The notes under the pieces were generated by a model. That model was not told the origin of the DNA and ran no database searches. It saw only the letters and a list, made by a program, of their open reading frames with translations. The translations under genes and the position numbers were made by a program. Below, one piece after another: positions 6,421 to 42,018 of a DNA stretch of 64,000 bases; positions within the stretch are counted from its first letter, which is position 1; every line of letters begins with the position of its first letter. Source of the DNA: Halorubrum sp. 48-1-W (GTDB taxonomy: Archaea > Halobacteriota > Halobacteria > Halobacteriales > Haloferacaceae); assembly GCF_003287355.1 (NCBI RefSeq), contig NZ_QMIM01000011.1:62001-126000 (forward strand), given 5' to 3'.

Positions 6421-7668
6421 ATGAACGATCTGACAGGCGCCCAACAGTCGATCGCGACCTCCGCGAACCCGTCCGCGGAGTTCGATCGGCTGTCGCCGAG
6501 CCGGCGACGGGAGGTGTTCTTTCTGCTTCCGGAGACGATGCGACGGGCCCTCGTCGAGGACCTCGACGACGAACGGCTGGGCCGGTTCGTCAACCGGCTC
6601 GACCCCGACGAGGTGGCGGACGTGCTCGGGCTCGCGGACGAAGCGAGACGGGAGACGGTGCTCCGGCGGCTCGAGGAGGATCGCCGCAGGAAAGTCGAGT
6701 TCCTGCTCGAGTTCGGCCCGGAGAGCGCGGCCGGCCTCATGCGGCTCAACTACGTCACCGTCGACGTCGACCGCGACCTCGACGTCGTCGCGAGCAGGGT
6801 CCAGCGACACGAGGAGCGTACCGGCGAGTTCCCGACGATCCTGCTCACCGAGGGCGAGGAGCTCCTCGGCGAGCTTCCGGGACAGGTGCTCGCGATGGAC
6901 CACGGGGGGACCGTCGACCTCCGGGGGCACGTCCTCGAGCTTCCGGTCGTCGCCTACGACACCCCCCAGGAGTCCGTCGTCGACGTGTTTCGGGAACATC
7001 CGGAAAGCACGGTCGCGGTGTTGAACGACGACCGGACCGTTATGGGGGTCATCCACGCCGAGGACCTCCTCCGCGTCGTCGAGGAGAGTGCGGCCGGCAC
7101 GCTCTACGAGTTCACGGGCGTCAGGAAGGAGGAGAGCATCCTCGACGGCCCGGTCTCGAAGATCCGGTACCGGTACAAGTGGTTGATAATCAACCTCGGG
7201 ACGGCGTTCCTCGCAGCCGGGATGGTCGGCGTCTTCGAGGACACCATCCAGGCGTTGACGCTACTCGCGGTGTACATGCCGGTCGTCGCCGGGATGGGCG
7301 GGAACGCGGGCACGCAGTCGATGGCCGTGACCGTCCGCGGGATCGCCCTCGAGCAGATCTCGCTGGCGACCGGGAGTCGTGCCGTGGTCAACGAGGTGAT
7401 CGCGGGGGCCGCGAACGGGCTCATCACGGGCGTGCTCGTCGCGATCATCGCGTCGGTGTTCAACCAGAGCCCGCTTCTCGGGCTCGTCCTCGGCGTCTCG
7501 ATGGTGTTGAACCTCGTCATCGCGGGCTTCTTCGGGACGCTCATCCCGTTGCTACTCGACCGGATCGACAAGGACCCCGCGACGTCGGCGACCATCTTCA
7601 TCACGACGATGACCGACGTGCTCGGGTTCTTCGTCTTCCTCGGGCTGGCGCGAGCCGTGCTGATGTGA
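6421..7668 (+). CDS. mgtE: MgtE-type magnesium transporter
   Basis: 415 residues. The N-terminal acidic helical domain (about 1-120) contains the family pattern LPETMRRALVEDLDDERLGR. It is followed by a CBS pair (about 120-235, including EHPESTVAVLNDDRTVMGVI) and five membrane helices starting near KWLIINLGTAFLAAG. The helix containing MPVVAGMGGNAGTQS holds the conserved pore-region Asn/Gly signature. MgtE is a Mg2+-gated Mg2+ channel of the cytoplasmic membrane in which the N and CBS domains sense internal Mg2+. It is monocistronic and tail-to-tail with argF, 20 bases apart. Confidence 0.93.
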   Translation: MNDLTGAQQSIATSANPSAEFDRLSPSRRREVFFLLPETMRRALVEDLDDERLGRFVNRLDPDEVADVLGLADEARRETVLRRLEEDRRRKVEFLLEFGPESAAGLMRLNYVTVDVDRDLDVVASRVQRHEERTGEFPTILLTEGEELLGELPGQVLAMDHGGTVDLRGHVLELPVVAYDTPQESVVDVFREHPESTVAVLNDDRTVMGVIHAEDLLRVVEESAAGTLYEFTGVRKEESILDGPVSKIRYRYKWLIINLGTAFLAAGMVGVFEDTIQALTLLAVYMPVVAGMGGNAGTQSMAVTVRGIALEQISLATGSRAVVNEVIAGAANGLITGVLVAIIASVFNQSPLLGLVLGVSMVLNLVIAGFFGTLIPLLLDRIDKDPATSATIFITTMTDVLGFFVFLGLARAVLM

Positions 7669-7688
7669 AGCGGACGCGTCGGGGGGCC

Positions 7689-8600
7689 CTACGACACGTC
7701 GTCGTCGGCACCCAACAACTCGACCAGCAACGCGTTCTGGGCGTGCATCCGGTTCTCCGCCTGTTCCCACACCAGGGCACGGTCGGACTCGAGCACGTCG
7801 TCCGTGATCTCCTCGCCGCGGTGGGCGGGCAGACAGTGCATCACCGTCGCGTCGGTGCCGGCGAGGAGGTCGGCGTTCACCTGGAAGCCGTCGAAGGCGG
7901 CCAGCTTCTCGTGGCGCTCGTCCTCCTGGCCCATCGAGATCCACACGTCGGTGTAGACGACGTCGGCCCCGTCGACGACCGCCTCCGGGTCCGTCGTCGG
8001 CTCCACGTCCGCGCCGAAGGCGGCCGCCCGCTCGAACACCCCGGGGTCCATCCCGTAGTCGGCGGGGGTGGCCACCCGCACGTCGATGCCGGCCATCGCC
8101 GCGCCGACGACGAAGGACTGACCCACGTTGTTGCCGTCGCCGACCCACGCCACGGTCGCGTCCTCGCCGACCGACTCCCGGATCGTGAGCAGGTCGGCGA
8201 GCGTCTGGCAGGGGTGGGCCTCGTCGGTGAGCCCGTTGATCACTGGGCAGTCGGCGTGCTCGGCGAGCGTCTCGACGTCGGCGTGGTCGAACAGCCGCGC
8301 CATCACGACATCGACGTAGCGACCGAGCACGCGGGCGGTGTCCCGAAGCGGCTCGCCGTGGCCGAGATGGACGTCGTCGGGGCCGAGGAACATCGCGTGG
8401 CCGCCGAGCCGCGTCATCCCCGTCTCGAAGGAGATCCGCGTCCGCGTCGAGGGTTTCTCGAAGATCATCCCGAGCGTGGTGTCGGGGAGCCGCGGGTCGG
8501 TTTCGCCCGCCTTCATCGCTGTCGCGCGATCGAGCAGGGCGTCCAGTTCGGCTGGCGTCACGTCGTCGATGTCGAGGAAGTCGTCGGTAGCGAGTGGCAT
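7689..8600 (-). CDS. argF: Ornithine carbamoyltransferase
   Basis: 303 residues, full length. It carries the carbamoyl phosphate site EKPSTRTRISFE, the HPCQTLADLLT motif and the ornithine/catalytic loop MHCLPAHRGEEI. It makes citrulline from ornithine and carbamoyl phosphate, the step between the LysW-ornithine route and argG. It is the last gene of the arginine cluster, separated from argE by 128 bases without overlap, unlike the upstream genes, so it may also have its own promoter. Confidence 0.96.
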   Translation of the reverse strand: MPLATDDFLDIDDVTPAELDALLDRATAMKAGETDPRLPDTTLGMIFEKPSTRTRISFETGMTRLGGHAMFLGPDDVHLGHGEPLRDTARVLGRYVDVVMARLFDHADVETLAEHADCPVINGLTDEAHPCQTLADLLTIRESVGEDATVAWVGDGNNVGQSFVVGAAMAGIDVRVATPADYGMDPGVFERAAAFGADVEPTTDPEAVVDGADVVYTDVWISMGQEDERHEKLAAFDGFQVNADLLAGTDATVMHCLPAHRGEEITDDVLESDRALVWEQAENRMHAQNALLVELLGADDDVS

Positions 8601-8728
8601 GTGGGTTCGTGGATGTGGTGGGTACGGGTGGCGTCGTTCGTCGGGTTCGAGTCGGTCGGATCGGCCGGATCAGGTTCGGTAGCGTCGGTCCCGTCGAGAT
8701 GGGTGCGCCGCGGCACGCGGCCGCGACG

Positions 8729-9919
8729 CTAGGGTCGGTCGCGACAGACGTCCGCGAGGACGGTCGTCGCCCGGTCCAGCTCCGAGAGCGGGAGCCGCTC
8801 GTCGGGCGCGTGGTCCAGCTCGGAGTTCCCGGGGCCGTAGGTGACCATCGGGCAGTCCCACTCGGCTGCGAAGAGGTTCATGTCGCTCGTCCCGGTCTTC
8901 CTGAGCAGGCGGACGTCGCCGCCCGCAGAGCGGATCGCCACGCGGAACGCCCGCGCGAGGTCGGTCCGGGGGCTCTCCATCACGGGCGGGATCGGCTCCT
9001 TCCAGTGGACCGACCCCGTCGAGAGCTCCGCTTCGGCCAGCTCGTGGACCTCGTCGACGGTCCGCGAGGGCGGCACGCGGAGCTGGACGTCCATCGCGGC
9101 CTCGACGGCGAGCCCGTCGTCGGTCAACCCGCCGTCCATGGAGACGGGTTTCGTCGTCACCTGCTCGAAGACGGGCGTCCCCGGGTCCGCCGGCGAGAAC
9201 GCCTCCTCGACGCCGTGCCACCAGTCGATCGCGTGCTGGATCGCGTTCGGCTCCGGCCGCGAGGAGTGGCCCGACTCGCTAGTGTTGACGTACGTGCCGG
9301 CGAGGAAGCCGCGGTAGCCGAGGGTGACGCCGTCCCAGCCGGACGGCTCGCCGTTCACCACGGCGTCGGGCGCGTCGCGGTCGGCGACGAGGTGGCGTGC
9401 CCCCCGCGAGCCGGTCTCCTCGCCGACGACCCCCGCGAAGGAGACGCCGGTCTCGACGGCGGCGACCGCCATCGCGACGAGCGGCCCGGTCGCGTCGACC
9501 GACCCCCGACCCCACAGCACGGGCTCGCCCGGCTCCCCGATCCGGACGTCGCTCGCACCGAGGTCGTCGGCCTCGGCGGGGGCCGGCCGTACCTCGACGG
9601 GGATGTCGCCGGGGACGGTGTCGACGTGGGAGGTGAGGAGGACCGCGTCGTTCGCGGGCGCGCGGACGTTCCCGACCTCGTCGATCCACGCCTCGCGGCC
9701 GTTGGCCTCGAAGAAGTCGACGAGCCGCTCGGCGGCTGACGCCTCCTCGCCGGAGGGTGAAGGGATCGACACGAGGTCGAAGAGCAGCTTTCGTCCCGGC
9801 GTGTCGCAGGCCTCGGGGTAGCCGCCGCCGGCGACGACGTCGGTGCCACGTTCGTCGGTGGCAGTATCGCCGGTTGTGTGCTCATCGGTCGACTCCGCCG
9901 AGTCGGGCGCGGCGGTCAC
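8729..9919 (-). CDS. argE: [LysW]-ornithine hydrolase (LysK/ArgE type, M20 family)
   Basis: 396 residues of the M20 metallopeptidase family. Visible metal and catalytic motifs are LTSHVDTVPG, GRGSVDATGPL and VVGEETGSRGA. A variable low-complexity stretch of about 25 residues precedes the conserved start near GRKLLFDLVSIPSPSG. By context it releases ornithine from the LysW-type carrier protein; the family also acts on LysW-lysine. The start overlaps the argD stop by 4 bases, implying translational coupling. A later start inside the low-complexity N-terminus cannot be excluded. Confidence 0.9.
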   Translation of the reverse strand: MTAAPDSAESTDEHTTGDTATDERGTDVVAGGGYPEACDTPGRKLLFDLVSIPSPSGEEASAAERLVDFFEANGREAWIDEVGNVRAPANDAVLLTSHVDTVPGDIPVEVRPAPAEADDLGASDVRIGEPGEPVLWGRGSVDATGPLVAMAVAAVETGVSFAGVVGEETGSRGARHLVADRDAPDAVVNGEPSGWDGVTLGYRGFLAGTYVNTSESGHSSRPEPNAIQHAIDWWHGVEEAFSPADPGTPVFEQVTTKPVSMDGGLTDDGLAVEAAMDVQLRVPPSRTVDEVHELAEAELSTGSVHWKEPIPPVMESPRTDLARAFRVAIRSAGGDVRLLRKTGTSDMNLFAAEWDCPMVTYGPGNSELDHAPDERLPLSELDRATTVLADVCRDRP

Positions 9920-28202: not shown

Positions 28203-28232
28203 TTTTTTACCTCAGTGCGTGATACGGAATCC

Positions 28233-29135
28233 ATGAACCTCAAACGCACGCTCCTCATCACGCCCGCCTCGGACGAGGAACTGATTCGAAAGGGTCGTAC
28301 GACGGACGCGGACGCGTTGTTCCTCGACCTAGAGGACGCGATCCTTTCCGAGGAGAAAGCGAGGACCCGGAGCGACCTCGTGGAGTTCTTGACGTCCGGT
28401 CCGGACCTCGAGAAGTCGGTCGCCGTGCGGATCAACGCGGTGACCACCAAGTGGTGGTACGAGGACCTGATCGAGACCGTCACCGCCGCTGGAGGGGAGG
28501 TCGACAGCCTCATCGTCCCGAAGGTCACGGAGGTGGAACAGCTCCACGCCGTCGACTTGCTGTTGCGACAGGTGGAGCGGAACGCCGGGATACCAGTCGG
28601 CGAGATCGGACTGATCCCACAGCTGGAGAGCGCGGAGGCGATCAACAACGCGACGGGGATCGCTCGGTCGGTCGATCGGTTGACCGCCCTGCTCTTCGGG
28701 CCGGGCGACTACGCGGCCAGTATCGGCGTCGGGGAGACGAGGGACGGCACCGAGGCCGGTCAACACTGGGAGTACGCCCGTTCACGGGTCGTGAACGCCG
28801 CGCGGGAGGTCGGGATACAGGTGATAGACGGAATGTATCCCGACACCGGCGACACACAGGGGTTCCGCACGGCGTGTCAGCGGAGCCGTGCCCTCGGGTT
28901 CGACGGGAAGACGGTCGTCCACCCGAACCAGATCCACATCGCGAACGAGATATTCACCCCGAGTCCACAGGACGCCCGTCGGGCGCGCCGGATCTACGAG
29001 GCGTACACGGCGTCCGATCACGGCGAACACGGGACGGTCGAGGTCGACGGACAGGTCATCGACGAGGAAACGTTCGCGATGGCGAAAGAGATCGTCGAGA
29101 AGGCGACGGAGGCCGACGAACTGGACGACCTCTGA
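28233..29135 (+). CDS. HpcH/HpaI aldolase/citrate lyase family protein (CitE-like)
   Basis: 300 residues, starting MNLKRTLLITPASDEELIRK. The CitE-type pattern is clear: a Mg2+-site region FLDLEDAILSEEKARTR, VRINAVTTKWWYEDL, IPQLESAEAINNATGIA, LLFGPGDYAASIG and KTVVHPNQIHIANEIF. Family members cleave or form C-C bonds in citryl-, malyl- or methylmalyl-CoA esters. Without a CoA ligase nearby the substrate is unknown. The ATG at 28233 follows a T-rich TATA-like box by about 25 bases; an in-frame GTG at 28215 is less likely. It converges on the IclR gene, stops 2 bases apart. Confidence 0.85.
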   Translation: MNLKRTLLITPASDEELIRKGRTTDADALFLDLEDAILSEEKARTRSDLVEFLTSGPDLEKSVAVRINAVTTKWWYEDLIETVTAAGGEVDSLIVPKVTEVEQLHAVDLLLRQVERNAGIPVGEIGLIPQLESAEAINNATGIARSVDRLTALLFGPGDYAASIGVGETRDGTEAGQHWEYARSRVVNAAREVGIQVIDGMYPDTGDTQGFRTACQRSRALGFDGKTVVHPNQIHIANEIFTPSPQDARRARRIYEAYTASDHGEHGTVEVDGQVIDEETFAMAKEIVEKATEADELDDL

Positions 29136-29137
29136 GG

Positions 29138-29932
29138 TCACTTGAAGTGGCCGTGCCAGGAGTGCTTGGGGGAGAACGTCGAGCGGGAGTCGTACCAGGA
29201 CGTGAGCGAGAGTTCGATGCGCTCGACCGTCTCGAGCAGCTGATCACCCGCCGAGAGCGGGCTGCCGACCTCGCCCGGAACGGTCACCGTCAACGCCCCG
29301 ATAACCGTCCCGTCCCGGCGAGAGAGCGCGCCCGCGAACGTCCGGTCCGACCCCTCCGGTCCCGGTTCGACCGCGTATCCCCGGCGGCGGATGCGGTCGA
29401 ACCGGTCCCGGACGTCGTCGGCGATCTCGGGTATGTCCCCGGCGGCGGTGCGATCGTCGCCCCCCTCGTCGTCCTCGCCGGCTCGCTCGTACTCGACGAG
29501 CATCACGGGTCCGGCGATCGACTCGGAGAGCGGCGTCCGCTCCCCGAGGTGTCGCTCCCGAACCCCCGGGTAGTACCCTTCCTCGGCGATCATCGTCGCG
29601 TCGTCCCCCTCTTTGAGGTAGAGACGGACGACGCCGTCGGTCTCGGTCGCCAGCGACTTCATCTCGATCCGCGCCGCCTGATACAGCGGCGACTGGTCGC
29701 GGAGTCTGCCGCCGAGCCGGAGGAGCTTCGTCGAGACGTGGTACTGTCTGTCGTGATGGGTCACGTATCCGCAGTCGACGAGCGTCGTCAGGTGACTGTG
29801 GACGGTGCTCTTGCTCATCCCGAGCGCGGTGGCCACCTCGGTGACGCCGGCACCGTCCTCCCGCTGGAGGAACTCCAAGATGGTGAACGACTTCTCGGTG
29901 GTCCCCACCCGGTTCCGCGATGGTTCGGTCAT
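29138..29932 (-). CDS. IclR family transcriptional regulator
   Basis: 264 residues, starting MTEPSRNRVGTTEKSFTILE. The N-terminal winged helix-turn-helix contains GVTEVATALGMSKSTVHSHL (about 30-50). The C-terminal GAF-like effector domain spans about 85-255, with a hydrophilic insert (EDDEGGDDRTAAGD). IclR proteins typically control catabolic operons and bind small organic acids, fitting the surrounding cluster. The ATG at 29932 is chosen because family sequence begins there. Its divergent spacer contains a perfect hairpin. Confidence 0.9.
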   Translation of the reverse strand: MTEPSRNRVGTTEKSFTILEFLQREDGAGVTEVATALGMSKSTVHSHLTTLVDCGYVTHHDRQYHVSTKLLRLGGRLRDQSPLYQAARIEMKSLATETDGVVRLYLKEGDDATMIAEEGYYPGVRERHLGERTPLSESIAGPVMLVEYERAGEDDEGGDDRTAAGDIPEIADDVRDRFDRIRRRGYAVEPGPEGSDRTFAGALSRRDGTVIGALTVTVPGEVGSPLSAGDQLLETVERIELSLTSWYDSRSTFSPKHSWHGHFK

Positions 29933-30358
29933 ACGTAACGATCGATCTATGTATACTAATCTGTTCGGATATGCTAAATATATGATGTGTATGTCGACGC
30001 GATCGGCGTCCGATCGGGGATGGGGACGGTGCGATCCTGGTCCGAGAACCGCTATACTACACAGATATTCATTATAGTTGAACGGGATCGTGGGTTGTGA
30101 AGACAACCCACACGAGAATACGGGATATATAGCCGTCAAATCGGTCGTTTTCGGGTCTCACGTCCGTTCGCGAGTTCAGCGGATCGAAGCAGAACGTCGG
30201 CGTTCAGCGATATTGAACGGGTCATCGAGGAGGATTCGACACCTCGGGTACGGGACGACGAACGGTGGCGAAAAGGGATGGAACGTCGAGGGTGGCGAAG
30301 GTGGCGAAGGCGGGGTGAGGGTGGCGAGAACGGACAGCGTAGGAGAGTCTCCCGACCG
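29933..30358. other. Spacer between IclR and aldo/keto reductase genes, with hairpin
   Basis: No gene supported. AT-rich sequence at 29940-30080 holds the iclR promoter. 30090-30111 is a perfect hairpin gtgggttgt/acaacccac with a GAAG loop. 30285-30325 contains repeated ggtggcgaa units downstream of the reductase stop. The hairpin could be a terminator or a remnant of an IS605-type element end. Confidence 0.45.
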
Positions 30359-31177
30359 TCAGTTCGACCACGTCGGCGCGTACGGCGGGTCGTACTGCCG
30401 GTCGCGCCGATCGAGCGCGTCGATCCGGTCGATCTCCTCGTCGGTCAGATCGAGGTCCCGAGCCCGAACGTTGTCGACGATGTGGTCGCGGCTCGTCGCC
30501 TTCGGGATCGGGACGACGCCCTTCCTCATGGCCCACGCGAGGCTGACGCGTGCCGGGCTGACGTCATGGGCGTCCCCGATCTCGGCGAGTTCCGGCACGT
30601 CGAGGACGCGTCCGTTCCCGAGCGGCGCGTACGCGACGAGGTCGATGTCGTGGGAGTCACAGTACGACCGGAGTCGTCGCTGGGGGAGGAGCGGGTGCAT
30701 CTCGACTTGAAGCGCGTCGATCGGGATGGGTGACCGATCGCGTGCTTCGTCGATCCCGTCGGGGGTCATGTTACAGACACCGAGCCGGTCGAAGAGTCCC
30801 TCGTCGTGGAGCTCGGCGACCGCGTCGAACGTCGTCTGCGGGCCGTAGCCGTCGGCGGGCCAGTGGACGGCGTAGAGGAGGTCGACTCGATCGACCCCGA
30901 GCCGGTCGAGACACGCACGCGCGTTCTCCTTGACGCTCGCCGCCGAGTAGTCGTCGGTGAACTTCGGGTGTAACACTTTGGTGGCGAGGAAGACGTCCTC
31001 GCGGTCGACGTCGGCGGCGGCGAGTCCCTCACCGACGGCGACTTCGTTCCCGTACGCCTCCGCGGTGTCGACGTGGCGATACCCCTCCTCCAGTGCGGTC
31101 CGGACGCTCCGGACGCAGTCGTCGTGGTCCGTGACCCGATACGTACCGAGCCCCGGCGCAGGGATGTCCGTTTTCAT
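30359..31177 (-). CDS. Aldo/keto reductase
   Basis: 272 residues with a TIM-barrel AKR layout. The catalytic tetrad is visible as Asp and Tyr in DTAEAYGNEVAVGE, Lys in FLATKVLHP and His in LYAVHWPADG. The NADPH-binding C-terminal site is IPKATSRDHIVDN. It likely reduces an aldehyde or ketone with NADPH in the cytoplasm. It lies 60 bases downstream of the RraA-family gene on the same strand, probably one transcript, and within the putative catabolic cluster. The physiological substrate is unknown. Confidence 0.9.
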   Translation of the reverse strand: MKTDIPAPGLGTYRVTDHDDCVRSVRTALEEGYRHVDTAEAYGNEVAVGEGLAAADVDREDVFLATKVLHPKFTDDYSAASVKENARACLDRLGVDRVDLLYAVHWPADGYGPQTTFDAVAELHDEGLFDRLGVCNMTPDGIDEARDRSPIPIDALQVEMHPLLPQRRLRSYCDSHDIDLVAYAPLGNGRVLDVPELAEIGDAHDVSPARVSLAWAMRKGVVPIPKATSRDHIVDNVRARDLDLTDEEIDRIDALDRRDRQYDPPYAPTWSN

Positions 31178-31237
31178 GCGAGCGATTCACACATGCGGAA
31201 CGAGGGTAGTAAGTGTTGTCCTCGCCCCGGGTTCAGC

Positions 31238-31921
31238 TCAGACGTCGTCGGGCGAGTCGACGACCCGGACGTCGGCGTCGTCGATCAGTTCGTGGATCCC
31301 GAGCAGGTCGGCCAGGGTCTCCCCGTCGTCGATCCGCTCCCGCAGGGTGGCCTCGTGGTCGGCGATCCCGGCGACAGCCGTAGCCGTCGCGTCGACCGCC
31401 TCACGCGGGACCACGGTGACCCCGTCCCGGTCGCCGACGACGACGTCGCCCGGGCGGACGGCGACGCCGCCGACCGAGACCGGCACGTTCACCGACCCGG
31501 GGGTCTCCTTCACCGCGCCCGCCTGCGAGACGGCAGACGAGAACACCGGAAACTCGCTTTCCGACAGGTGTGCCGTGTCCCGGACGTTGCCGTCGGTGAC
31601 GATCCCTCCGAGCTCCTGTCGCTTCGCGTTGCGCGTGAGTAACTCCCCCCAGACGGCCGCCCGACGCGACTCGGCGGCGACGACGAGGACGTCGCCCGGC
31701 TTCGCCAGGTCGGACGCGAGGTGGACCATCGCGTTGTCGCCGGGCGGAACCCGGACCGTACAGGCGGGGCCACAGACCGTGACGTCCTCGTTTATCGGGC
31801 CGATCTCCGGGTCCATCGCCGTCCGTTCCCCCACCGCCTCGTGGACGCTCGCGGCATCGAACCGGTCGAGCGCGTCGATCGTGTCCCGGTCCGGCCGTTC
31901 GAAGTCCTTCACGACGACCAT
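31238..31921 (-). CDS. RraA family protein (HMG/CHA aldolase or oxaloacetate decarboxylase type)
   Basis: 227 residues, starting MVVVKDFERPDRDTIDALDR. The RraA-like core is seen in VCGPACTVRVPPGDNAM, KPGDVLVVAAE, GELLTRNAKRQELGGIVTDG and VRDTAHLSE. Enzymatic members cleave 4-hydroxy-4-methyl-2-oxoglutarate or 4-carboxy-4-hydroxy-2-oxoadipate to pyruvate/oxaloacetate; others inhibit RNase E, an enzyme absent from archaea. A role as a retro-aldolase or decarboxylase is therefore favoured. It is divergent from the amidase gene, with 111 bases between them. Confidence 0.85.
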   Translation of the reverse strand: MVVVKDFERPDRDTIDALDRFDAASVHEAVGERTAMDPEIGPINEDVTVCGPACTVRVPPGDNAMVHLASDLAKPGDVLVVAAESRRAAVWGELLTRNAKRQELGGIVTDGNVRDTAHLSESEFPVFSSAVSQAGAVKETPGSVNVPVSVGGVAVRPGDVVVGDRDGVTVVPREAVDATATAVAGIADHEATLRERIDDGETLADLLGIHELIDDADVRVVDSPDDV

Positions 31922-32032
31922 ACGAGCGAGTGTCACCCGCGGGTCAAGAACGTATCGGCGATCGGAGCCCCGCGACGTTCGTGTCCGGGCCGGGAGCAAA
32001 CACTTTTTCCGGTCCGCGTGTTCGGTCGGATC

Positions 32033-33472
32033 GTGAGCCGAGTTCACACACGATCGGCGACGGCGCTCGCCGAGGACATCCGCAGGGGGGATCGATCCCC
32101 GGTCGAAGTCGTCGAACGCCTGCTCGACAGGATCGACGAGCGGAACGACCGGACGAACGCGTTCGTGACGGTGGCCCGAGAACGGGCGCTCGAGCGCGCG
32201 AGGGAGGCGGAACGGGCCGTTGAGGCCGGCGAGGACCTGGGGCTGATCCACGGAGTCCCCGTGGCGATCAAGGACCTCGACGACGTGGCGGGCGTGCGGA
32301 CGACCTCCGGCTCGCTGCTGTTCGAGGACCGGATCGCCGAGGAGTCGGACCCGTTCGTCCGCCGGCTGGTCGACGCGGGGGCGATCGTGATCGGGAAGAC
32401 GAACACGCCGGAGTTCGGGCTCGGGTGTACGACGGACAACCGGGTCGTCGGCCCGACGGGGACCCCGTTCGACCCGACGCGGATCGCCGGCGGCTCCTCC
32501 GGGGGAGCCGCCGCGGCGCTCGCGGATCGGCTGGTTCCGCTGGCACAGGGGACCGACACCGGCGGGTCGATCCGAACGCCGGCGTCCTGTTGCAACGTGT
32601 TCGGTCTCAAGCCGTCCTTCGGCCGGGTCCCCCGCGTCGGTCGACCGAACGCGTTCGGCGACCACACGCCGTTCTCGCACACGGGTCCGATGACCCGAAC
32701 GGTCGAGGACGCCGCGCTCATGCTCGACGTGATGGCCGGGCCGGACCCGCGTGACCCGTTCAGCCTGCCCGACGAGGGGACGGACTACCTCGCTGCGACC
32801 CGGGAACCGATCGACGACCTCACGGTCGCGTACAGCCCGGACCTCGGCATCTATCCGGTCGCGTCGTCGGTTCGGGCCGTCGTCGACGAGGCGGTCGGAG
32901 CGTTCGAGGACAGCGGGGCGACCGTCGAGCGAGCCGACCCCGACCTCGACCTCGAGAACTCGGACGTCCTCGACGCGTTCTACACGTTCGCGAAGGTGAA
33001 GTGGGAGGCGTTGTTCGACGGCCTCGAGGAACGGGGGTTGGACCCACGGGGGGAAGACCGGTCCGAGCTTCGACCGATCACGGTGGAGACGATCCTCGAG
33101 AGCGACCCGGTCACGACCCGGGAGTACAAGACGGCCGACCGGACCCGGACGCGAGTGTACGACGCGGTCGTCGACCTCCTCGGGGAGTACGACCTCCTCG
33201 TGACGCCGACGCTCGGCGTCGAGCCGTTCCCCCACGGGGAGTACCCCACGGAGATCGAGGGAACCGAGATCGAGCCGCTCCGTGGATGGCTCCTCACCCA
33301 GCCGTTCAACTTCTCGGGCCACCCCGTGGGGGCCGTCCCCGCCGGGATCTCCGAGGACGGGCTCCCCGTCGGGATGCAGGTCGTCGGGCGACGTCACGCC
33401 GAGGCGGACGTGCTGGCCGCCAGCGCCGCGATCGAGCGCGAACGCTCGTGGCACGACGACTACCCGGCGTGA
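32033..33472 (+). CDS. Amidase (amidase signature family)
   Basis: 479 residues from the GTG at 32033, which lies about 27 bases after a T-rich TATA-like box. The Ser-cisSer-Lys triad region is visible: VPVAIKDLDDVAG holds the lysine, and IAGGSSGGAAAALA with GTDTGGSIRTPAS holds the serines. The family hydrolyses amides, or acts as GatA in tRNA amidation; without gatB or gatC nearby a catabolic amidase is favoured. Within this cluster it could release an organic acid from an imported amide, but that is inference. Confidence 0.88.
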   Translation: MSRVHTRSATALAEDIRRGDRSPVEVVERLLDRIDERNDRTNAFVTVARERALERAREAERAVEAGEDLGLIHGVPVAIKDLDDVAGVRTTSGSLLFEDRIAEESDPFVRRLVDAGAIVIGKTNTPEFGLGCTTDNRVVGPTGTPFDPTRIAGGSSGGAAAALADRLVPLAQGTDTGGSIRTPASCCNVFGLKPSFGRVPRVGRPNAFGDHTPFSHTGPMTRTVEDAALMLDVMAGPDPRDPFSLPDEGTDYLAATREPIDDLTVAYSPDLGIYPVASSVRAVVDEAVGAFEDSGATVERADPDLDLENSDVLDAFYTFAKVKWEALFDGLEERGLDPRGEDRSELRPITVETILESDPVTTREYKTADRTRTRVYDAVVDLLGEYDLLVTPTLGVEPFPHGEYPTEIEGTEIEPLRGWLLTQPFNFSGHPVGAVPAGISEDGLPVGMQVVGRRHAEADVLAASAAIERERSWHDDYPA

Positions 33473-34155: not shown

Positions 34156-34821
34156 ATGTCAGCCGACAACCCGCTTTTCGCGTCCGGCGTCCTCACCACC
34201 GAGGAGAGATCGGTGACGCTCTCCGAGGGGTTCGAGGAGGCGGTCGAAACGTACCTGTCACGGTTCGAGGGACACACGAGCGAGGAGTTCGCCGCCGAGA
34301 TCGAAGCCGCCGTCGACGACGACGTCGCGGTCGAGCCGCTCGCGGCGCTCGGCGAGGAGGACCCGCGAACGATCGCCGAGCTGTGCGTCCTCGCCGAGCG
34401 CCTGGGGGCCGACGACGCCAAGACGGACGGAAACCCGGTACAGCTGCTTCCGTCCCTGCGGCTGTTTCGGGACGACGACGTTCGGTCCGACGGCGCCCCC
34501 GAGTCGTTCGTCCCCGTTGCTGCGACGCAGCTTCCACAGCTGTTACGGATCTACTCGCCGGCGCTGGTGTACGTGTGGCTGGACGACTCCGAGAAGTGTG
34601 ACCTCGCGAAACGCGACCTCGAGACGGTGTTCGAGGAGCCACAGGATGTGATGCCGTTCGCGGTGTACGGCCCGGCGTACAAGGAGTTCCTCGACCGGGA
34701 GTACTCCCTGACGGCGGGTCCGGCGGTGTTGTTCACGCGTGACGGCGCGGTAGAGGCACGGATCTACGGCGCTCACGGACCCGGGACCATCGAGACGGAA
34801 CTCGAACGACATCGACGGTGA
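34156..34821 (+). CDS. Thioredoxin-fold-like haloarchaeal protein
   Basis: 221 residues. The N-terminal 100 residues are acidic and helical (GFEEAVETYLSRFEGHTSEE). From about 120 the pattern LLRIYSPALVYVWLDDSEKC, then FAVYGPAYKEFLDREYSLTAGPAVLF, looks like a thioredoxin fold with cis-Pro (TAGPAVLF). The active-site region keeps only one cysteine (SEKCDLAK), so disulfide reductase activity is doubtful. I do not know a characterised homologue. It stands between the Usp gene and the ABC operon, 160 bases upstream of the first permease. Confidence 0.65.
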   Translation: MSADNPLFASGVLTTEERSVTLSEGFEEAVETYLSRFEGHTSEEFAAEIEAAVDDDVAVEPLAALGEEDPRTIAELCVLAERLGADDAKTDGNPVQLLPSLRLFRDDDVRSDGAPESFVPVAATQLPQLLRIYSPALVYVWLDDSEKCDLAKRDLETVFEEPQDVMPFAVYGPAYKEFLDREYSLTAGPAVLFTRDGAVEARIYGAHGPGTIETELERHRR

Positions 34822-34932: not shown

Positions 34933-34995
34933 ATGGCAATAACGGAGAGTATACACACTATCGAGAGGTCCGCACAGACCGATGAGCATTGCTGA
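34933..34995 (+). CDS. Possible 20-residue leader ORF overlapping the first permease start
   Basis: The first ATG downstream of the TATA box opens MAITESIHTIERSAQTDEHC and stops at 34993-34995, 13 bases inside the permease gene, whose ATG is at 34982. On a leaderless or nearly leaderless transcript this ORF would be translated first. Ribosomes terminating at its stop could re-initiate on the permease start, giving coupling. No homologue is known to me. Confidence 0.35.
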   Translation: MAITESIHTIERSAQTDEHC

Positions 34996-35887
34996 CAAGA
35001 TCCACGCGTACCGCAACAGCGATCTCGCGATCATCGCGAGACGGGCGCTAGGGAACCTCCTCGAGGAACGGATCACCAAGGCGGCCTTCGTGATCCTGGC
35101 GATCATCCTCGTCATGGGTCTCGTCGGCCCGGTGATCGCGCCGTACTCGTACAACACCCAGCAGACGACGGACGACGGCGAGTTGATGCGGTACGCCGAG
35201 CCGTCCCTCGAACATCCGCTCGGTACGAACGACCGCGGGGAGGACGTGCTCTCGCGGCTGTTGTTCGGGGCGCGGTCGACGCTCATCACCGGCCTGCTCG
35301 CCGGTGGCCTGATGATGGTGATCGGGTTGACGGTCGGGATGACCGCCGGATACGTCGGGGGGAGGACGGAGAGCGTCCTCATGCGGTTCGTCGACTTCAT
35401 GTACGGGATCCCCTTCATCCCGTTCGCGATCGTCCTCATCACGTTCTTCGGGGCGGGGTTCTACACGACGGTCGCGATCCTGGGACTCGTGCTCTGGCGG
35501 TTCATAGCCAGGGTGATACGATCCCAGGTGCTTCAGATAAACCAACGGCCGTACATCATGGCCGCACGAGCGACCGGGGCGAGCACTCCGTGGATCATGC
35601 GGAAACACATCCTCCCGAACATCGCGAACATGGCGGCGCTGTTCTTCGCGATGGGCGTCGGGTTGGCGATCCTCGAGCAAGCCGGACTTTCGTTCATCGG
35701 CGTCACCGACCCGTTCACGCCGACGTGGGGGATCATGATCCGGAACGCCAACCAAGCGGGTCGTATCGCCGAAGCCTGGTGGTGGACGTTCCCGCCGGGC
35801 ATCATGATCGCGTTGACCGTGCTGTCGCTGTACCTCCTCGGCCGCGGGTACGAGGGGAGCGGCGGAGACGACGAGGTGGTGGTGTAA
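34982..35887 (+). CDS. Dipeptide/oligopeptide-type ABC transporter permease (DppC-like)
   Basis: 301 residues. The family N-terminal segment ends at a first helix (AAFVILAIILVMGLVGPVIA), followed by the DppC landmark HPLGTNDRGEDVLSRLLFGA and five further helices. The EAA loop that contacts the ATPase is MAARATGASTPWIMRKHILP. Substrates of this class include peptides, nickel chelates and sugar oligomers. It is the first gene of a five-gene transport operon in an unusual order (C-D-F-B-binding protein). Confidence 0.9.
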   Translation: MSIADKIHAYRNSDLAIIARRALGNLLEERITKAAFVILAIILVMGLVGPVIAPYSYNTQQTTDDGELMRYAEPSLEHPLGTNDRGEDVLSRLLFGARSTLITGLLAGGLMMVIGLTVGMTAGYVGGRTESVLMRFVDFMYGIPFIPFAIVLITFFGAGFYTTVAILGLVLWRFIARVIRSQVLQINQRPYIMAARATGASTPWIMRKHILPNIANMAALFFAMGVGLAILEQAGLSFIGVTDPFTPTWGIMIRNANQAGRIAEAWWWTFPPGIMIALTVLSLYLLGRGYEGSGGDDEVVV

Positions 35888-36931
35888 ATGACGGACCCGA
35901 TACTGGAATTCGAGAACGTCGACATTCGCTATCGGACGGAGAAAGGAAACGACGTATACGCGGTCAACGACGCGTCGTTCTCGATAGACCGGCACGACTA
36001 CTTCGGGCTGGTCGGCGAGAGCGGGTGCGGCAAGAGTACGATCGCGGACGCCATCGTCGGTGGCCTCGACTCCAACGGCGAGGTCACCTCCGGGACGATC
36101 CGGTACAAGGGCGAGGAGATCCAGGACTACTCCGAGTCGGAGTTCAACGAGAACGTCCGGTGGAAGGAGATATCGGTCATCCCCCAGTCGTCGATGAACA
36201 GCCTGGACCCGGTGATGAAGCTGAGCAACCAGGCGGTCGAGATGGCGAAGTACCACACCGACCTCACGAAGACGGAGGCGGTCGACCGCCTGCGTGAGCT
36301 GTTCGAGGTCGTCGGGCTCTCCGAGTCGCGGATCCACGACTACCCGCACCAGTTCTCCGGCGGGATGCAACAGCGGGCGATCATCGCGTTCGCGCTGTAC
36401 CTCCAGCCTAGCCTCATCATCGCCGACGAGCCGACGACGGCGCTGGACGTGATCATGCAGGACCAGATTATCGACTACATCAACGGCCTGAAAGACGAGT
36501 GGGACATCAGCATGCTGATGATCACCCACGACATCTCGGTCGTCTTCGAGAACTGCGACTCGATGGCCGTGATGCACGGCGGGCAGGTCGCCGAGACAGG
36601 GAGCGTGGTCGACGTGTACGACAGGCCGCGTCACCCGTACGCGATCCTGTTACAGAACGCGTTCCCGGACGTACGGTTCCCGGACCGCGAGCTGGCGGTC
36701 ATCGACGGGCACCCGCCGCAACTCCGCGACGAGGTGGACTTCTGTACGTTCGCCGACCGGTGTCCGTGGGCCCAGCCCGAGTGTCGCGAGGGTGCCCCGG
36801 ACGCCCAGCCCGTCGCCGGCGACGACGACCATCAGGCCTGGTGTGTCCGGGCCGACGAGATGGAGGAACTGGCGGCCGATCACCTCGAACCGAACGCCGA
36901 CGAGGAGAGCATCCTGGAGGGACAAGAATGA
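35888..36931 (+). CDS. ABC transporter ATP-binding protein (DppD-like)
   Basis: 347 residues, directly abutting the permease stop. Walker A is [12 protein letters not shown], the signature [16 protein letters not shown] and Walker [13 protein letters not shown]. The C-terminus has the oligopeptide-transporter cysteine motif [14 protein letters not shown], which in some homologues binds an iron-sulfur cluster. It pairs with the next gene as an ATPase heterodimer. Its stop overlaps the next start (ATGA). Confidence 0.92.
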
Positions 36932-37992
36932 GCGCGAACGATCCCGTCCTCGAACTCCAGTCGGTGGACAAACACTTCCAGACGACGTCGAGCTTCGTCG
37001 AGTCGGTCAAAGAGCGGATCTTCGGGGAGGGCCCGAAGCTGGTCCGTGCCGTCGACGACCTGGACATGACGCTCGAACAGAACCAGGTCCAGGGCGTCAT
37101 CGGCGAGAGCGGCTGTGGAAAGACGACGCTCCTGCGGACCGTGATGGGGCTGTACGACCCGTCTGGCGGAGACATCCGATTCCAGGGGCAGTCGACGAGC
37201 GAGTTCGACAAGTCCGACTGGAAGGAGTTCCGTCGGAAGGTTCAGATCGTGTTCCAGGACCCGTTCAACTCTCTGGACCCGAAGTTCAGCGTCCGGCGCA
37301 CGATCGCCGAGCCGCTGGAGATACACAATATCGAGTACGAGCGGTCGGACATCGAGGAGATGCTGGAGAAGGTCGGACTGACGCCCGCGAGCCAGTACAT
37401 CCAACAGTTCCCGAACCAGCTTTCGGGCGGAGAGAAACAGCGCGTCGCCATCGCGCGAGCGCTCATTACCGACCCCGAAGTGATCCTCGCCGACGAGCCG
37501 TCGTCGATGCTCGACGTCTCGACGCAGGCGTCGATCCTCAACCTGTTGAACGATCTGACCACCGAGTTCGGCGTCTCGATGATCTACATCTCCCACGACC
37601 TCTCGACGGTATCGTACGTCTGTGACGAGATCAACGTGATGTATCTGGGACGGATCGTCGAGAAGGCCGAGACCCGGAAGCTACTCTCGGACCCGAAACA
37701 CCCGTACACGAAGGCGCTGATCCAGTCGATCCCGATCCCCGACCCGCACCACGAGCGCGAGCGAGCGACGATCGGCGGGGAGCCGGGCGACCCGATCGAC
37801 ATGCCGGAGGGGTGTCGGTTCAAGACCCGCTGTCCGGAACGGATGGACGTCTGTGACCACGAACCGCTGGACGTCGATCCGGACGGTGACGGGGAGCGCA
37901 CGGTCGCCTGTCACCTCTACTACGATCACGAAACGACGGCCGGCCAGGTGAACGAGCCGGCCGGGGAACACACTCCGGAGACACCGACATGA
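36928..37992 (+). CDS. ABC transporter ATP-binding protein (DppF-like)
   Basis: 354 residues, start [20 protein letters not shown]. Walker A is GESGCGKTTLLRT, the Q-loop VFQDPFNSLDPKFS, the signature LSGGEKQRVAIARAL and Walker B VILADEPSSMLD. The C-terminal cysteine motif is CRFKTRCPERMDVC. The ATG overlaps the upstream stop by 4 bases, and its own stop overlaps a 40-codon ORF in the same ATGA manner. Confidence 0.92.
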   Translation: MSANDPVLELQSVDKHFQTTSSFVESVKERIFGEGPKLVRAVDDLDMTLEQNQVQGVIGESGCGKTTLLRTVMGLYDPSGGDIRFQGQSTSEFDKSDWKEFRRKVQIVFQDPFNSLDPKFSVRRTIAEPLEIHNIEYERSDIEEMLEKVGLTPASQYIQQFPNQLSGGEKQRVAIARALITDPEVILADEPSSMLDVSTQASILNLLNDLTTEFGVSMIYISHDLSTVSYVCDEINVMYLGRIVEKAETRKLLSDPKHPYTKALIQSIPIPDPHHERERATIGGEPGDPIDMPEGCRFKTRCPERMDVCDHEPLDVDPDGDGERTVACHLYYDHETTAGQVNEPAGEHTPETPT

Positions 37993-38111
37993 CTCGATAC
38001 GACCCGAGAGCGAACACGCGACCCGACGTGCAACGAGCGACGAACGCCCTCGTAGCCGGAGACGGCGAGGGGGGCAGAGCGAGATCCCAACCCGGAGGTG
38101 AGCGCCCGTGA
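37989..38111 (+). CDS. Possible 40-residue bridging protein in the ABC operon
   Basis: It starts MTRYDPRANTRPDVQRATNA and ends GGRARSQPGGERP. Its ATG overlaps the DppF-like stop (ATGA) and its TGA overlaps the GTG start of the next permease (GTGA), so all 123 bases are accounted for by interlocked starts and stops. The composition is basic and Gly/Arg-rich, unlike the acidic neighbours, and no membrane helix is seen. It may be a translational relay rather than a functional protein. No family is recognised. Confidence 0.45.
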   Translation: MTRYDPRANTRPDVQRATNALVAGDGEGGRARSQPGGERP

Positions 38112-39106
38112 GCCGTCTGAGCTACTTCGTCCGCCGGACGGCGATAACGGTGGGGCTGATCTTCCTCGTCGCCTCGGCGCTGTTCTTCTTCTTCCGGGCG
38201 ATGCCGGGGGATTACTCGTCGCTACTGGTCCAACAGGGGATGAACCCCGAACAGATCGAACGGCTCCGGGCCGACTGGGGACTTGACGCACCCCTGTACG
38301 TCCAGTACTACGAGTACATCACCAACCTCCTGACCGGGAACGCGGGGCAGTCCTTCCGCTTCAGCGAGCCGGTCTGGGAGCTCGTGGCCCCGCGGATCTT
38401 GAACTCGTTCGTGCTGGTCGCACCGGCCATCACGGCGACGTACATCGTCGGCGGGCTGTTCGGCGCGTACATCGGGCGTCGCCGCGGGAGCCCGCTCGAG
38501 AAGTCGGGGATCATCTCGGTCTCCGTCTTCCACTCGATCCCGGACTTCTTCCTCGGGATCATGCTGATCGCGCTGTTCTCCTCGACGCTGGGGATCTTCC
38601 CGACGTCGGGGATGCTCCCGCCGGCGGCGATGCTCCAAGTCCAGGACCAGGCGTACTGGCAACGGTTCCTGTTGCCGGAGTTCTGGAGACACTACACGCT
38701 ACCGTTCATGACGGTGCTCCTCTACTTCATGCAGTATCCGACGCTGATCATGCGTAACAGCGTCGTCGAGGTGAGCAACCAGGAGTACCTCCACTACCAC
38801 CGGCTGAAGGGGCTTCCCGAGTCGAAGCTACTCCGGAAGATCATTCGTCACGCCTCGCTACCGGTCATCACGCTGTATCCGATCTCGCTGGCGGCGTCGA
38901 TCAGCGGGCTCGTCCTGATCGAGGTCGTGTTCAACTGGCCCGGGATCGGCCAGCTGCTCGTCTCCTCGGTTCTGGCGAGGGACTTCCCCGTGATCCAGTT
39001 CGTGTTCCTCATCGCGGCCGTCTGGGTCATCATCGGGAACTTCGTCGTCGACCTCCTGTACGGCGTGCTGGATCCGCGCGTGTCCGTCGCCGGCGACGAG
39101 GACTGA
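38108..39106 (+). CDS. Dipeptide/oligopeptide-type ABC transporter permease (DppB-like)
   Basis: 332 residues from the GTG at 38108. The DppB hallmarks are the first helix after YFVRRTAITVGLIFLVASA, then RAMPGDYSSLL, LRADWGLDAPLYVQYYEYI and NLLTGNAGQSFRF. The coupling loop is YLHYHRLKGLPESKLLRKII, and the C-terminal YGVLDPRVSV is typical. It would form the membrane channel with the DppC-like permease. The start overlaps the small bridging ORF's stop. Confidence 0.9.
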   Translation: MSRLSYFVRRTAITVGLIFLVASALFFFFRAMPGDYSSLLVQQGMNPEQIERLRADWGLDAPLYVQYYEYITNLLTGNAGQSFRFSEPVWELVAPRILNSFVLVAPAITATYIVGGLFGAYIGRRRGSPLEKSGIISVSVFHSIPDFFLGIMLIALFSSTLGIFPTSGMLPPAAMLQVQDQAYWQRFLLPEFWRHYTLPFMTVLLYFMQYPTLIMRNSVVEVSNQEYLHYHRLKGLPESKLLRKIIRHASLPVITLYPISLAASISGLVLIEVVFNWPGIGQLLVSSVLARDFPVIQFVFLIAAVWVIIGNFVVDLLYGVLDPRVSVAGDED

Positions 39107-39215
39107 GGGCGTCCTCGTCGACACCGACGGCCACGCCGGCCCGTTCATATGTTCGATCTCGAGCCATGAGGCGGGTCGAGACGTAACGTACGTCAGAAAT
39201 TCTAAGTATCACAAA

Positions 39216-39225
39216 TTTTTTAAAT
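39216..39225 (+). promoter_or_regulatory. TATA-like box for the substrate-binding protein gene
   Basis: TTTTTAAATA lies about 25-32 bases before the ATG at 39248, so the binding protein probably has its own strong transcript beyond operon read-through. Confidence 0.5.
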
Positions 39226-39247
39226 AGTTCCTTCGAACGCATAAGAC

Positions 39248-41098
39248 ATGCCACCAAGTGGCAACCGCGTGGAGGAGAAGGGTATCGACCGTCGGCAAGC
39301 ACTGAAAGTCATCTCCGTGGCCTCTGCCGCGGCCCTCGCCGGCTGTGGCGGGAACGGCGAGGGCGGCGACGGCGGCGACGACGGGGGGGGCGGCGACGAC
39401 GGAGGAGGCGACGACGACGGCGGCGACGACGACGGCGGCGACGGAGGAAGCAGTCCGGAGGGCCTCGGGGAGCGCGTCCCCACGTTGACCTTCCAGTACT
39501 GGTCGGACCAGGGGCCGCCGACGGTGCTGTTCGAGGAGACCATCTCGAGCATCCAGTCGGTCGCCTCGGACATCGGCATCGAGGTGGAGACACAGCCGAT
39601 GACGACCGCGGAGGGCATCACGGCGGTCAGCGACGACGTGCGCGACTTCCACCTGGCCGTGAACAGCCACGGGCCGGACCCGGGCCGACTCGATCCCAAC
39701 GGGCTGTTACAGGCGTACAGCATCGGTAACGCCGGATCGAACGGGCAGTACAACCCGTCGAACTACGCCAACACGGAGTACTCGGATCTCGTCAACGAGC
39801 AGGTGTCGATGGGCGTTCCCGACGAGCGTCGAGAGGTCGTCGGCGAGGCGATGAGCCTCTACTCGGAGGACCTCCCGTTCATCCCGACGATCGAGCGACC
39901 GACGACGGCCGCGATCAACACCGACATGGTGGAACCGGTCGAGGCGGGCGGTGCGGGCCTCTCCGCGGTTAACTGGGCCGCACTGGTCGAGTCGGGTGCT
40001 CAGACGACGGGCGGCACCGACACGATCCTTGCGAACCTCCCGGGGGAGTTCCTCACGGACAGCTTCTACCCGACGGTCGGCGACACCGACTCGCTGGGGC
40101 TGTACACGCAACTGACGCACTCGCCGCTGATGCTGTACGACTCCGACTACGAACGGGTTCCCGTGCTCGCGGAGGACTGGGAGGTCTCCGACGACGGGAC
40201 GGAGGTGACGTTCAACCTCCGCGACGCCACGTTCCACAACGGGGAGCCGGTGACCGCGAGCGACGTCAAGTGGACCTACGAGTTCCTGAGCGAGCAGTAC
40301 CACGACGGGCCCTACCAGTGGACGGACCTCCCGGAGGACCTGACCGTAGAGGCCGTCGACGAGACGACCGCTCGCTTCGAGACGCCGGAGCCGGCACCGA
40401 CGCTGTTGACCGCACAGTTGCCGACGTTCGGCGTGTTGCCGCGTGACGCATACGTCGACGCCGGCATCGAGGAGAACCCGACCGACTTCGAGGACCCCAT
40501 GATCGGCGCGGGCCCCTACGAGATCGCGACGTACAACAACCAGGAGAACATCGAGCTGGTGCCCCACGACGGGAACCCGGCGTTCGAAGTGGAGTCGCCG
40601 ATCATCATGTCGATCTACGACAGCGTCTCGGCGGTCCGCCGGGCCTTCGAGAACGGGGAACTCGGCATCGCGGTAACGCTGACGCCGGACGCCGGCCGAC
40701 AGATCGGCGAGACGATGGGCGACACCGCCCAGATCGTCAACGGGGCGGCGTTCCTGCCGTTCGGCATGATGCCGCAGATGTCCTACGCGCCCGGGATGCA
40801 CCACGAGTTCCGGCAGGCGCTCTCACACATGGTCGACCGGCAGGGCCTGAACGAGACGTACGCCTTCGGGGAGTCCGACGTGGTGACGTACTGTACGTTC
40901 AACTCCCAACAACACCCCTGGTACAACGAGGACGTCCTCACGGAGGCCGGCCCGGAGACTCGCGACGTCGAGGCTGCCCGGCAGGTCCTCGAGGACGCTG
41001 GCTGGGGCTGGGACGACGACGGCAACCTCTACTACCCCGAGGACGCGGACCTCGAGGCGTGGCCCGAGGGCGAGGAGCCGAACCCGGACAACTTCTGA
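39248..41098 (+). CDS. SBP_bac_5-type substrate-binding lipoprotein, apparently circularly permuted
   Basis: 616 residues. A Tat-type signal (DRRQALKVISVASAAALAGC) ends at a lipobox Cys33, followed by an Asp/Gly linker to about 72. Residues 78-245 (LTFQYW, then IGIEVETQPMTT, then NYANTEYSDLVNEQ, then SEDLPFIPTIERP) look like the segment that normally closes the C-terminus of SBP_bac_5 proteins. The usual N-terminal start only comes at about 256 (GTDTILANLPGEFLTDS, then VPVLAEDWEVSDDGTEVTFN and FHNGEPVTASDVKWTYEFL). The protein stops at LEAWPEGEEPNPDNF, where ordinary members would continue into that closing segment. It is probably the ligand receptor of the upstream ABC transporter. Confidence 0.88.
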   Translation: MPPSGNRVEEKGIDRRQALKVISVASAAALAGCGGNGEGGDGGDDGGGGDDGGGDDDGGDDDGGDGGSSPEGLGERVPTLTFQYWSDQGPPTVLFEETISSIQSVASDIGIEVETQPMTTAEGITAVSDDVRDFHLAVNSHGPDPGRLDPNGLLQAYSIGNAGSNGQYNPSNYANTEYSDLVNEQVSMGVPDERREVVGEAMSLYSEDLPFIPTIERPTTAAINTDMVEPVEAGGAGLSAVNWAALVESGAQTTGGTDTILANLPGEFLTDSFYPTVGDTDSLGLYTQLTHSPLMLYDSDYERVPVLAEDWEVSDDGTEVTFNLRDATFHNGEPVTASDVKWTYEFLSEQYHDGPYQWTDLPEDLTVEAVDETTARFETPEPAPTLLTAQLPTFGVLPRDAYVDAGIEENPTDFEDPMIGAGPYEIATYNNQENIELVPHDGNPAFEVESPIIMSIYDSVSAVRRAFENGELGIAVTLTPDAGRQIGETMGDTAQIVNGAAFLPFGMMPQMSYAPGMHHEFRQALSHMVDRQGLNETYAFGESDVVTYCTFNSQQHPWYNEDVLTEAGPETRDVEAARQVLEDAGWGWDDDGNLYYPEDADLEAWPEGEEPNPDNF

Positions 41099-41238: not shown

Positions 41239-42018
41239 ATGCGAAAGGTTAGATTCCGAGATCCGGCCGGATCCGTCCGTACCGGCGAATGGACCGACGA
41301 TGACGAGATCCGGTTCGGCGGGGAGCAGTTCGACCCGTCCGAGGTCGACGTCCTCCCACCGACCGAACCGAGCAAGATCGTCTGTGTCGGCCTCAACTAC
41401 TCCGCGCACGCCGAGGAGACCGACTCGGAGGTCCCCGAGCGGCCGCTGTTGTTCCTGAAGGGGCCGAACACCCTCGCGGGCCACGGTGACACGATATCGT
41501 TACCCGAAGGGAAAGAACGAGTCGACCACGAGGCCGAGTTCGGCGTCGTCATCGGCGAGCAGTGTCGAAACGTCCCCGAGGACCGCGTCGAGGAGGTCAT
41601 CGCGGGGTACACCTGCGTGAACGACCTCTCGAACCGTGACGACCAGCGGAAAGAACAGAACTGGGTCCGTGGGAAGGCGTTCGACAACTCCGCGCCGGTC
41701 GGGCCGGTCGTCGCCGACCCGGAACACGTCCCCGACGACGCGACGATCAAGCTGACGGTCAACGGCGAGGAGAAACAGCACTCCTCGATCGACGACCTGA
41801 TCTTCTCCGTCCCGGAGCTCATAAGCGAGATCACGAAGCTGATCACGCTCGAGCGCGGCGACATCATCGCGACCGGGACGCCCTCGGGCATCAGCCCGCT
41901 CAGTGACGGCGACACGGTCGCGATCGAGATCGAGGGGGTCGGTCGACTGGAACACGACATCGTCGGACCCGAGGAGTTCTCCGGCGACGTCGACCACCGG
42001 TTCATGCCGAACCAGTGA
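41239..42018 (+). CDS. Fumarylacetoacetate hydrolase family protein
   Basis: 259 residues. The FAH-fold motifs are IVCVGLNYSAHAEE, FLKGPNT, the metal-binding DHEAEFGVVIGEQC, GYTCVNDLSNRDDQR and the terminal IATGTPSGISPL. Members hydrolyse, decarboxylate or hydrate 2-oxo acids from aromatic or sugar catabolism. A TATA-like CTTTTTTTAG tract (41205-41214) is 27 bases before the ATG, so it has its own promoter. It closes the putative catabolic cluster. Confidence 0.9.
   Translation: MRKVRFRDPAGSVRTGEWTDDDEIRFGGEQFDPSEVDVLPPTEPSKIVCVGLNYSAHAEETDSEVPERPLLFLKGPNTLAGHGDTISLPEGKERVDHEAEFGVVIGEQCRNVPEDRVEEVIAGYTCVNDLSNRDDQRKEQNWVRGKAFDNSAPVGPVVADPEHVPDDATIKLTVNGEEKQHSSIDDLIFSVPELISEITKLITLERGDIIATGTPSGISPLSDGDTVAIEIEGVGRLEHDIVGPEEFSGDVDHRFMPNQ

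Follow-up and report, generated by a model that had tools for sequence, protein, structure and literature searches.

Does the receptor gene of a Dpp/Opp-type importer in Halorubrum sp. 48-1-W encode an ordinary substrate-binding protein (SBP), or one whose fold segments follow each other in exchanged order? The window analyzed here is a stretch of 64,000 nucleotides (contig NZ_QMIM01000011.1, positions 62,001 to 126,000). In it, an open reading frame on the plus strand (39248-41098) encodes a Tat-type lipoprotein of 616 amino acids within a haloarchaeal Dpp/Opp-type ABC importer operon. A preliminary description had claimed that the order of the fold segments is swapped by circular permutation. 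Profile searches, rotation of the sequence, colinearity across a whole family and the close canonical relatives that other permuted lineages have agree with this claim. From the sequence comparisons, we are highly confident that the gene encodes a circularly permuted, membrane-tethered cluster C receptor of a Dpp/Opp/Nik-type ABC importer.

The translated frame begins with a twin-arginine signal and a lipobox (RRQALKVISVASAAALAGC, Cys33), and the two arginines and the AGC motif are invariant across 30 aligned members of the permuted family. By composition count, 38 of the 40 residues following the cysteine are D, E, G, S, T or N, in line with the signal and Asp/Gly linker described before. The two SBP segments follow (Table 1). 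Segment A corresponds to the second half of the C-lobe of the canonical fold plus the return to the hinge, and segment B ends in the loop after '..EDAGWGWDDDGNLYYP'. The earlier boundaries were close to ours: residues 78-245, compared to the closing segment of the C-terminal lobe, are off by a few residues at most, the canonical N-terminal start had been placed at about residue 256, and the protein indeed stops where canonical members enter the closing segment. By eye, an A/T-rich stretch (39200-39248) contains TTTAAATA about 30 bases ahead of the ATG. This candidate archaeal TATA box suggests that the receptor may have its own promoter.

Table 1. Features of the receptor gene and its surroundings (positions in the window)
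Feature	Position	Strand	Source
HpcH/HpaI aldolase	28215-29135		Pfam
IclR-type regulator	29138-30058		Pfam
Aldo/keto reductase	30359-31177		Pfam
RraA-like (aldolase)	31238-31930		Pfam
Amidase	about 32036-33472		Pfam
DppC/OppC-type permease (OppC_N, BPD_transp_1)	34982..35887	+	Pfam
DppD-type ATPase (ABC_tran, oligo_HPY)	35888..36931	+	Pfam
DppF-type ATPase	36928..37992	+	Translation read by eye
DppB/OppB-type permease (BPD_transp_1, BPD_transp_1_N)	38108..39106	+	Pfam
Receptor: Tat-type lipoprotein signal, lipobox LAGC, residues 1-33, predicted lipidated Cys33	39248..39346	+	Translation
Receptor: Asp/Gly-rich disordered linker, residues 34-72	39347..39463	+	Translation
Receptor: segment A (residues 78-244), homologue of the C-terminal portion of canonical SBP_bac_5 proteins	39479..39979	+	Profile searches/alignments
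Receptor: canonical C-terminus fused to canonical N-terminus, residues 245-255	39980..40012	+	Alignment
Receptor: segment B (residues 256-603), homologue of the N-terminal and middle portion of canonical SBP_bac_5 proteins	40013..41056	+	Pfam, phmmer, profile alignment
Receptor: newly created C-terminal tail (residues 604-616) with stop; canonical members run on into segment A here	41057..41098	+	Translation, alignment
FAH-family hydrolase (PF01557, E 2.5e-66), downstream of the receptor	41239..42018	+	Pfam

The genes for the DppC-type permease, the two ATPases, the DppB-type permease and, as last, the receptor form a run on the same strand, and the FAH-family hydrolase comes next. With OppC_N, BPD_transp_1, and ABC_tran plus oligo_HPY domains around the receptor, this run has the composition of an Opp/Dpp-type operon. 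Directly upstream of the DppC-type permease, a 221-aa acidic protein (34156-34821) had no match in Pfam. The genes flanking the importer (28215-33472 and 41239-42018) look like a catabolic island as judged from their families, in which the FAH-family hydrolase is a likely catabolic partner. From the nearby genes for an amidase, an HpcH/HpaI aldolase, an RraA-like protein and a FAH-family hydrolase, we tentatively expect the ligand to be a small amide or carboxylic compound and not a peptide.

Homology of segment B was evident from single-sequence searches. Residues 304-594 match positions 3-286 of the 368 positions of Pfam SBP_bac_5 (PF00496; E 5.8e-51), with 174 bits for the receptor against a curated cut-off of 32.4, and phmmer searches of the PDB placed residues 288-598 on the N-terminal and middle part of 5isu (46-348). 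The same search placed residues 110-216 on the C-terminal part of 7ofw (393-496, E 3e-7). Residues 78-245 as a single sequence gave no match in Pfam, which is what speaks for a gain of an unrelated N-terminal domain together with loss of the SBP C-terminal part, i.e. for an arrangement without any permutation. Against this stand the results obtained with the family. A profile of segment A matched 69 distinct PDB sequences at E<=0.01; among the matches listed (60 of the 69), all are SBPs of the SBP_bac_5 family, nearly all hit in their C-terminal part, and no unrelated family appeared among them. DppE (364-518, E 1.5e-19) and DppA (1dpp, 357-493, E 3.6e-15) are examples. Moreover, 11 of 14 segment A sequences of the family match SBP_bac_5 on their own. 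When the permuted-family profile was aligned to AppA, profile positions 231-564 fell on residues 17-351 and positions 69-217 on residues 365-506, that is, in reversed order. Comparison of the family profile with a canonical profile (hhalign) gave the same picture, with permuted positions 134-539 on canonical 1-393 (E 8e-113) and permuted positions 1-199, the segment A region, on canonical 359-536 (E 1e-36). By these values the swapped match far exceeds chance.

The preliminary description had also expected that the segments, joined end to end, would make one normal SBP. Rotating the sequence by hand (residue 256 onwards, then 76 onwards) widened the SBP_bac_5 match from 3-286 to 3-360 of 368 positions and lifted the PF00496 score from 174 to 185 bits. 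Order and breakpoint agree across 30 members, with identities falling to about 20%. Because segment A precedes segment B in the window protein and throughout its family, contrary to the canonical linear order of the profile, we classify the receptor by its sequence as a permuted variant of SBP_bac_5 (cluster C) and not as an ordinary member.

Predicted structures are consistent with this assignment. AlphaFold2 modeling of residues 71-616 with a 17-sequence alignment resulted in a pTM of 0.83 and a mean pLDDT of 81, whereas segment A alone (14-row alignment) reached a pTM of only 0.36 and a pLDDT of 55, a gap of which alignment depth (14 versus 17 rows) and length may account for a part. Since segment A does not fold alone in these models and the whole protein does, segment A would need segment B, as a half-lobe would, and is not predicted to be an extra, independent domain. 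Together with the swapped profile alignment and the segment A profile matches, this leads us to reject domain gain with truncation, a reading to which we give very little credence. Top matches in Foldseek searches with the receptor were NikZ, AppA, YntA, CtaP and DppA, all of them cluster C SBPs, with about 350-370 columns aligned colinearly at a TM of about 0.5. Since this aligner works colinearly and cannot span a permutation, the value is no test of the full fold; a partial colinear match of this size would be as expected for a permuted chain. A search of a viral structure library with the receptor gave no match.

Where the chain is cut can be read from the alignments. In EppA, the C-terminal lobe (domain III, residues 303-530 of 27-563) is a continuous stretch (PMC7312458), and in cluster C receptors the chain re-enters the hinge at the end of this lobe. 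The cut lies inside the C-lobe, in a variable loop after the conserved 'A..LL.EAGY' helix ('LLxEAGy'), which corresponds to a position between about 339 and 357 in DppA numbering. Both new termini lie in this loop, and a few residues link the canonical C-terminus to the canonical N-terminus. In the permuted protein L167, for example, the join reads SRINLHDV-ELEGGD-TLVVG, while the canonical relative L174 ends with SRINLHDVYLLKK and begins with ILVVG. R383 and D436 are ligand contacts of DppA (PMC12136057), and segment A spans the stretch that holds both (mapped position 1dpp 357-493). The same loop is cut in every permuted lineage seen in our searches, which were seeded with this arrangement and would therefore miss cuts elsewhere.

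The permuted order is widespread. Ten SBP_bac_5 genes were counted by profile in the source genome, and at least five of them are permuted by segment order (the window gene, L002, L003, L004 and L006). A sixth gene (C7:7860-8714) is probably permuted as well, judged by inspection: 8 residues separate the end of its B segment from the stop, and an A-like stretch lies in front, which the A profile did not recognize at E<=1. The permuted form thereby appears about as common as the canonical form among the ten receptors. With a full-length permuted profile, matches were detected in at least 91 of 194 genomes of Halobacteria and at least 8 of 190 genomes of Alphaproteobacteria (both E<=1e-100), and in at least 6 of 249 genomes of Bacillota and at least 1 of 229 genomes of Gammaproteobacteria (both E<=1e-90), all lower bounds because 6-7 candidates were scored per genome. 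Canonical proteins gave far weaker, half-length matches to this profile, beginning at about 160-208. Permuted order is consequently found in about half of the sampled Halobacteria and sporadically in Alphaproteobacteria, Bacillota and other groups. Some of the sequences, such as L064, stem from metagenome-assembled genomes (MAGs), which could point to an artefact of assembly or annotation. The same order and breakpoint, with proper signal and stop, recur in scores of genomes including low-contig assemblies, and this recurrence rules such an artefact out for all practical purposes.

Several individual loci deserve mention. In L166 (G000:C3), the permuted gene (about 6804-8675) is followed by a gene at 8672-9568. 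Permuted receptors of the type of L006 and L123 (Halorubrum saccharovorum) have an integral membrane protein as neighbor in place of ABC permeases, and their A segments match more weakly; they may be receptors that serve another role. Two apparent irregularities were dismissed: an in-frame TAG in the paralogue L004 is simply where the protein ends, the search having read past it, and a 1324-aa open frame in L032 consists of masked runs read as X.

Did the permutation arise once? In a first tree, into which close canonical sisters had not yet been included, the permuted L064 of a Bacillota MAG was placed among canonical proteins, and the test of one origin gave p 0.17. The nearest relative found for L064 (L157, in G547) is canonical; aligned gap-free in swapped order, the two share 65% identity across 349 residues and 56% across 155. 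Similarly, L167-L173 from seven Bacillota genomes are permuted and their nearest relatives, L174-L178, are canonical, with 50-56% identity in segment B and 39-48% in segment A. Gene order is SBP-B-C-D in the operons of both the permuted L182 and the canonical L180, whose B and C permeases are 65% and 58% identical, respectively; when L181 and L184 are compared as well, the order is kept and the permeases are 57-65% identical. A tree including the close canonical sisters requires four changes, at least three of them forced by strong branches, and a single origin was rejected (AU test, p 1.8e-63).

One ancient permutation, with the present spread due to inheritance, lateral transfer and reversion, may still hold for one group, which unites the clade of the window receptor with the main haloarchaeal clade and with most of the permuted proteins of bacteria. 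This is the largest permuted clade (support 90), with members from haloarchaea, Proteobacteria and Bacillota. For the permuted set as a whole it is highly improbable and is ruled out by the AU test; both L064 and the L167 group sit within branches of canonical proteins that are 50-65% identical to them. These results show that the permutation at this loop arose at least three times independently, in archaea and bacteria. Because the rearrangement arose in at least three separate instances, the cluster C receptor fold tolerates this one particular cut and swap unusually well. Among the relatives found there is no close canonical sister of the window protein, so that the events of other lineages, but not its own, can be dated and directed.

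A very divergent second permuted receptor of Martelella (L162/L179, G064:C26), with a join of about 85 residues, may represent a fourth independent origin. In L064 (22-1485, 5812-7554), genes for two permeases and two ATPases form one run with those for a canonical and for the permuted SBP, and the permuted SBP is closer to the canonical protein of another genome than to its canonical neighbor. Tandem duplication followed by fusion and deletion is a plausible route to the permutation, since neighboring SBP copies occur (e.g. in L055, G473 and G512).

We propose the following working of the receptor. The two-lobed 'Venus flytrap' of cluster C SBPs would be built from a circularly permuted chain, with the canonical termini fused by the short linker at about residues 245-255 and new termini opened in the C-lobe loop. 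The lipid anchor thereby comes to lie on the C-lobe side instead of the N-lobe side, a relocation already foreseen in the preliminary description. Most likely, ligand would be bound between the same two lobes, which would close on it, and would then be handed to the neighboring DppB/DppC-type permeases as by any cluster C receptor, while the long flexible linker would tether the receptor to the membrane beside the Dpp-type importer. Operon order is conserved around permuted and canonical receptors, so the translocator would see the same surface, and we expect no large change in docking.

Why the permuted form spread is a separate question. The shift of anchor and N-terminus from N-lobe to C-lobe could alter the seating of the receptor at the membrane or S-layer and its docking, and so explain the spread in haloarchaea; a change in membrane seating and in docking to the permeases had been suggested in the preliminary description. 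Repeated independent fixation at one loop and the frequency of the form in Halobacteria would fit, and the authors of the TpMglB-2 study raised this idea for their own receptor, a permuted member of cluster B (PMC4990184). We nevertheless consider this explanation unlikely, because a linker of this length (about 40 residues of low complexity) should uncouple anchor and fold, and because several permuted proteins of bacteria, among them L046, L051 and L061, have, by inspection, cleavable Sec signals lacking a lipobox. Long flexible linkers are found in permuted as well as canonical haloarchaeal members, and either receptor form occurs in operons that agree in gene order and encode homologous permeases. 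Slightly more credible, if still doubtful, is that the C-lobe loop is a natural hot spot of permutation (used at least three times) whose product became a main form of peptide-type receptor in haloarchaea because moving the tethered terminus to the C-lobe brings a real advantage in docking, folding or export.

The surprising part of these observations is the recurrent origin at one site. Besides a large permuted cluster C family, we find at least two younger lineages whose canonical sisters are 50-65% identical to them, and for one of these lineages the gene order of the operon is conserved. Such close pairs make the effects of chain order on folding, tethering and docking, and the way in which permutations arise, directly testable. 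Annotation overlooks the permutation because the HMM matches look like those of a truncated SBP_bac_5. Our search of the open-access literature found no description of permuted cluster C receptors; natural permutations of transport receptors are rarely described, and the one found belongs to another fold class.

Canonical SBP_bac_5 receptors (DppA, OppA, AppA, NikA, NikZ) are homologous to the window receptor over both segments and are encoded in the same type of operon, with two permeases and an oligo_HPY ATPase. The window receptor differs from them in the reversed segments, the new termini in the C-lobe loop and the fused canonical termini. TpMglB-2 (Tp0684) of Treponema pallidum, assigned to 'Cluster Bc', is a tethered ABC receptor whose chain is circularly permuted; its structure has been solved, and it binds glucose (PMC4990184). 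Like the window receptor it is permuted by nature, and it proves that a permuted receptor can work; unlike it, TpMglB-2 has the type I (cluster B) sugar receptor fold with the breakpoint in the N-lobe, whereas homology and fold matches of the window receptor point to cluster C only. Engineered circularly permuted binding proteins used as biosensors are likewise rearranged and can keep their function. These are man-made, while the permutation described here is natural, recurrent and widespread, and the permuted receptors offer natural templates for biosensor design.
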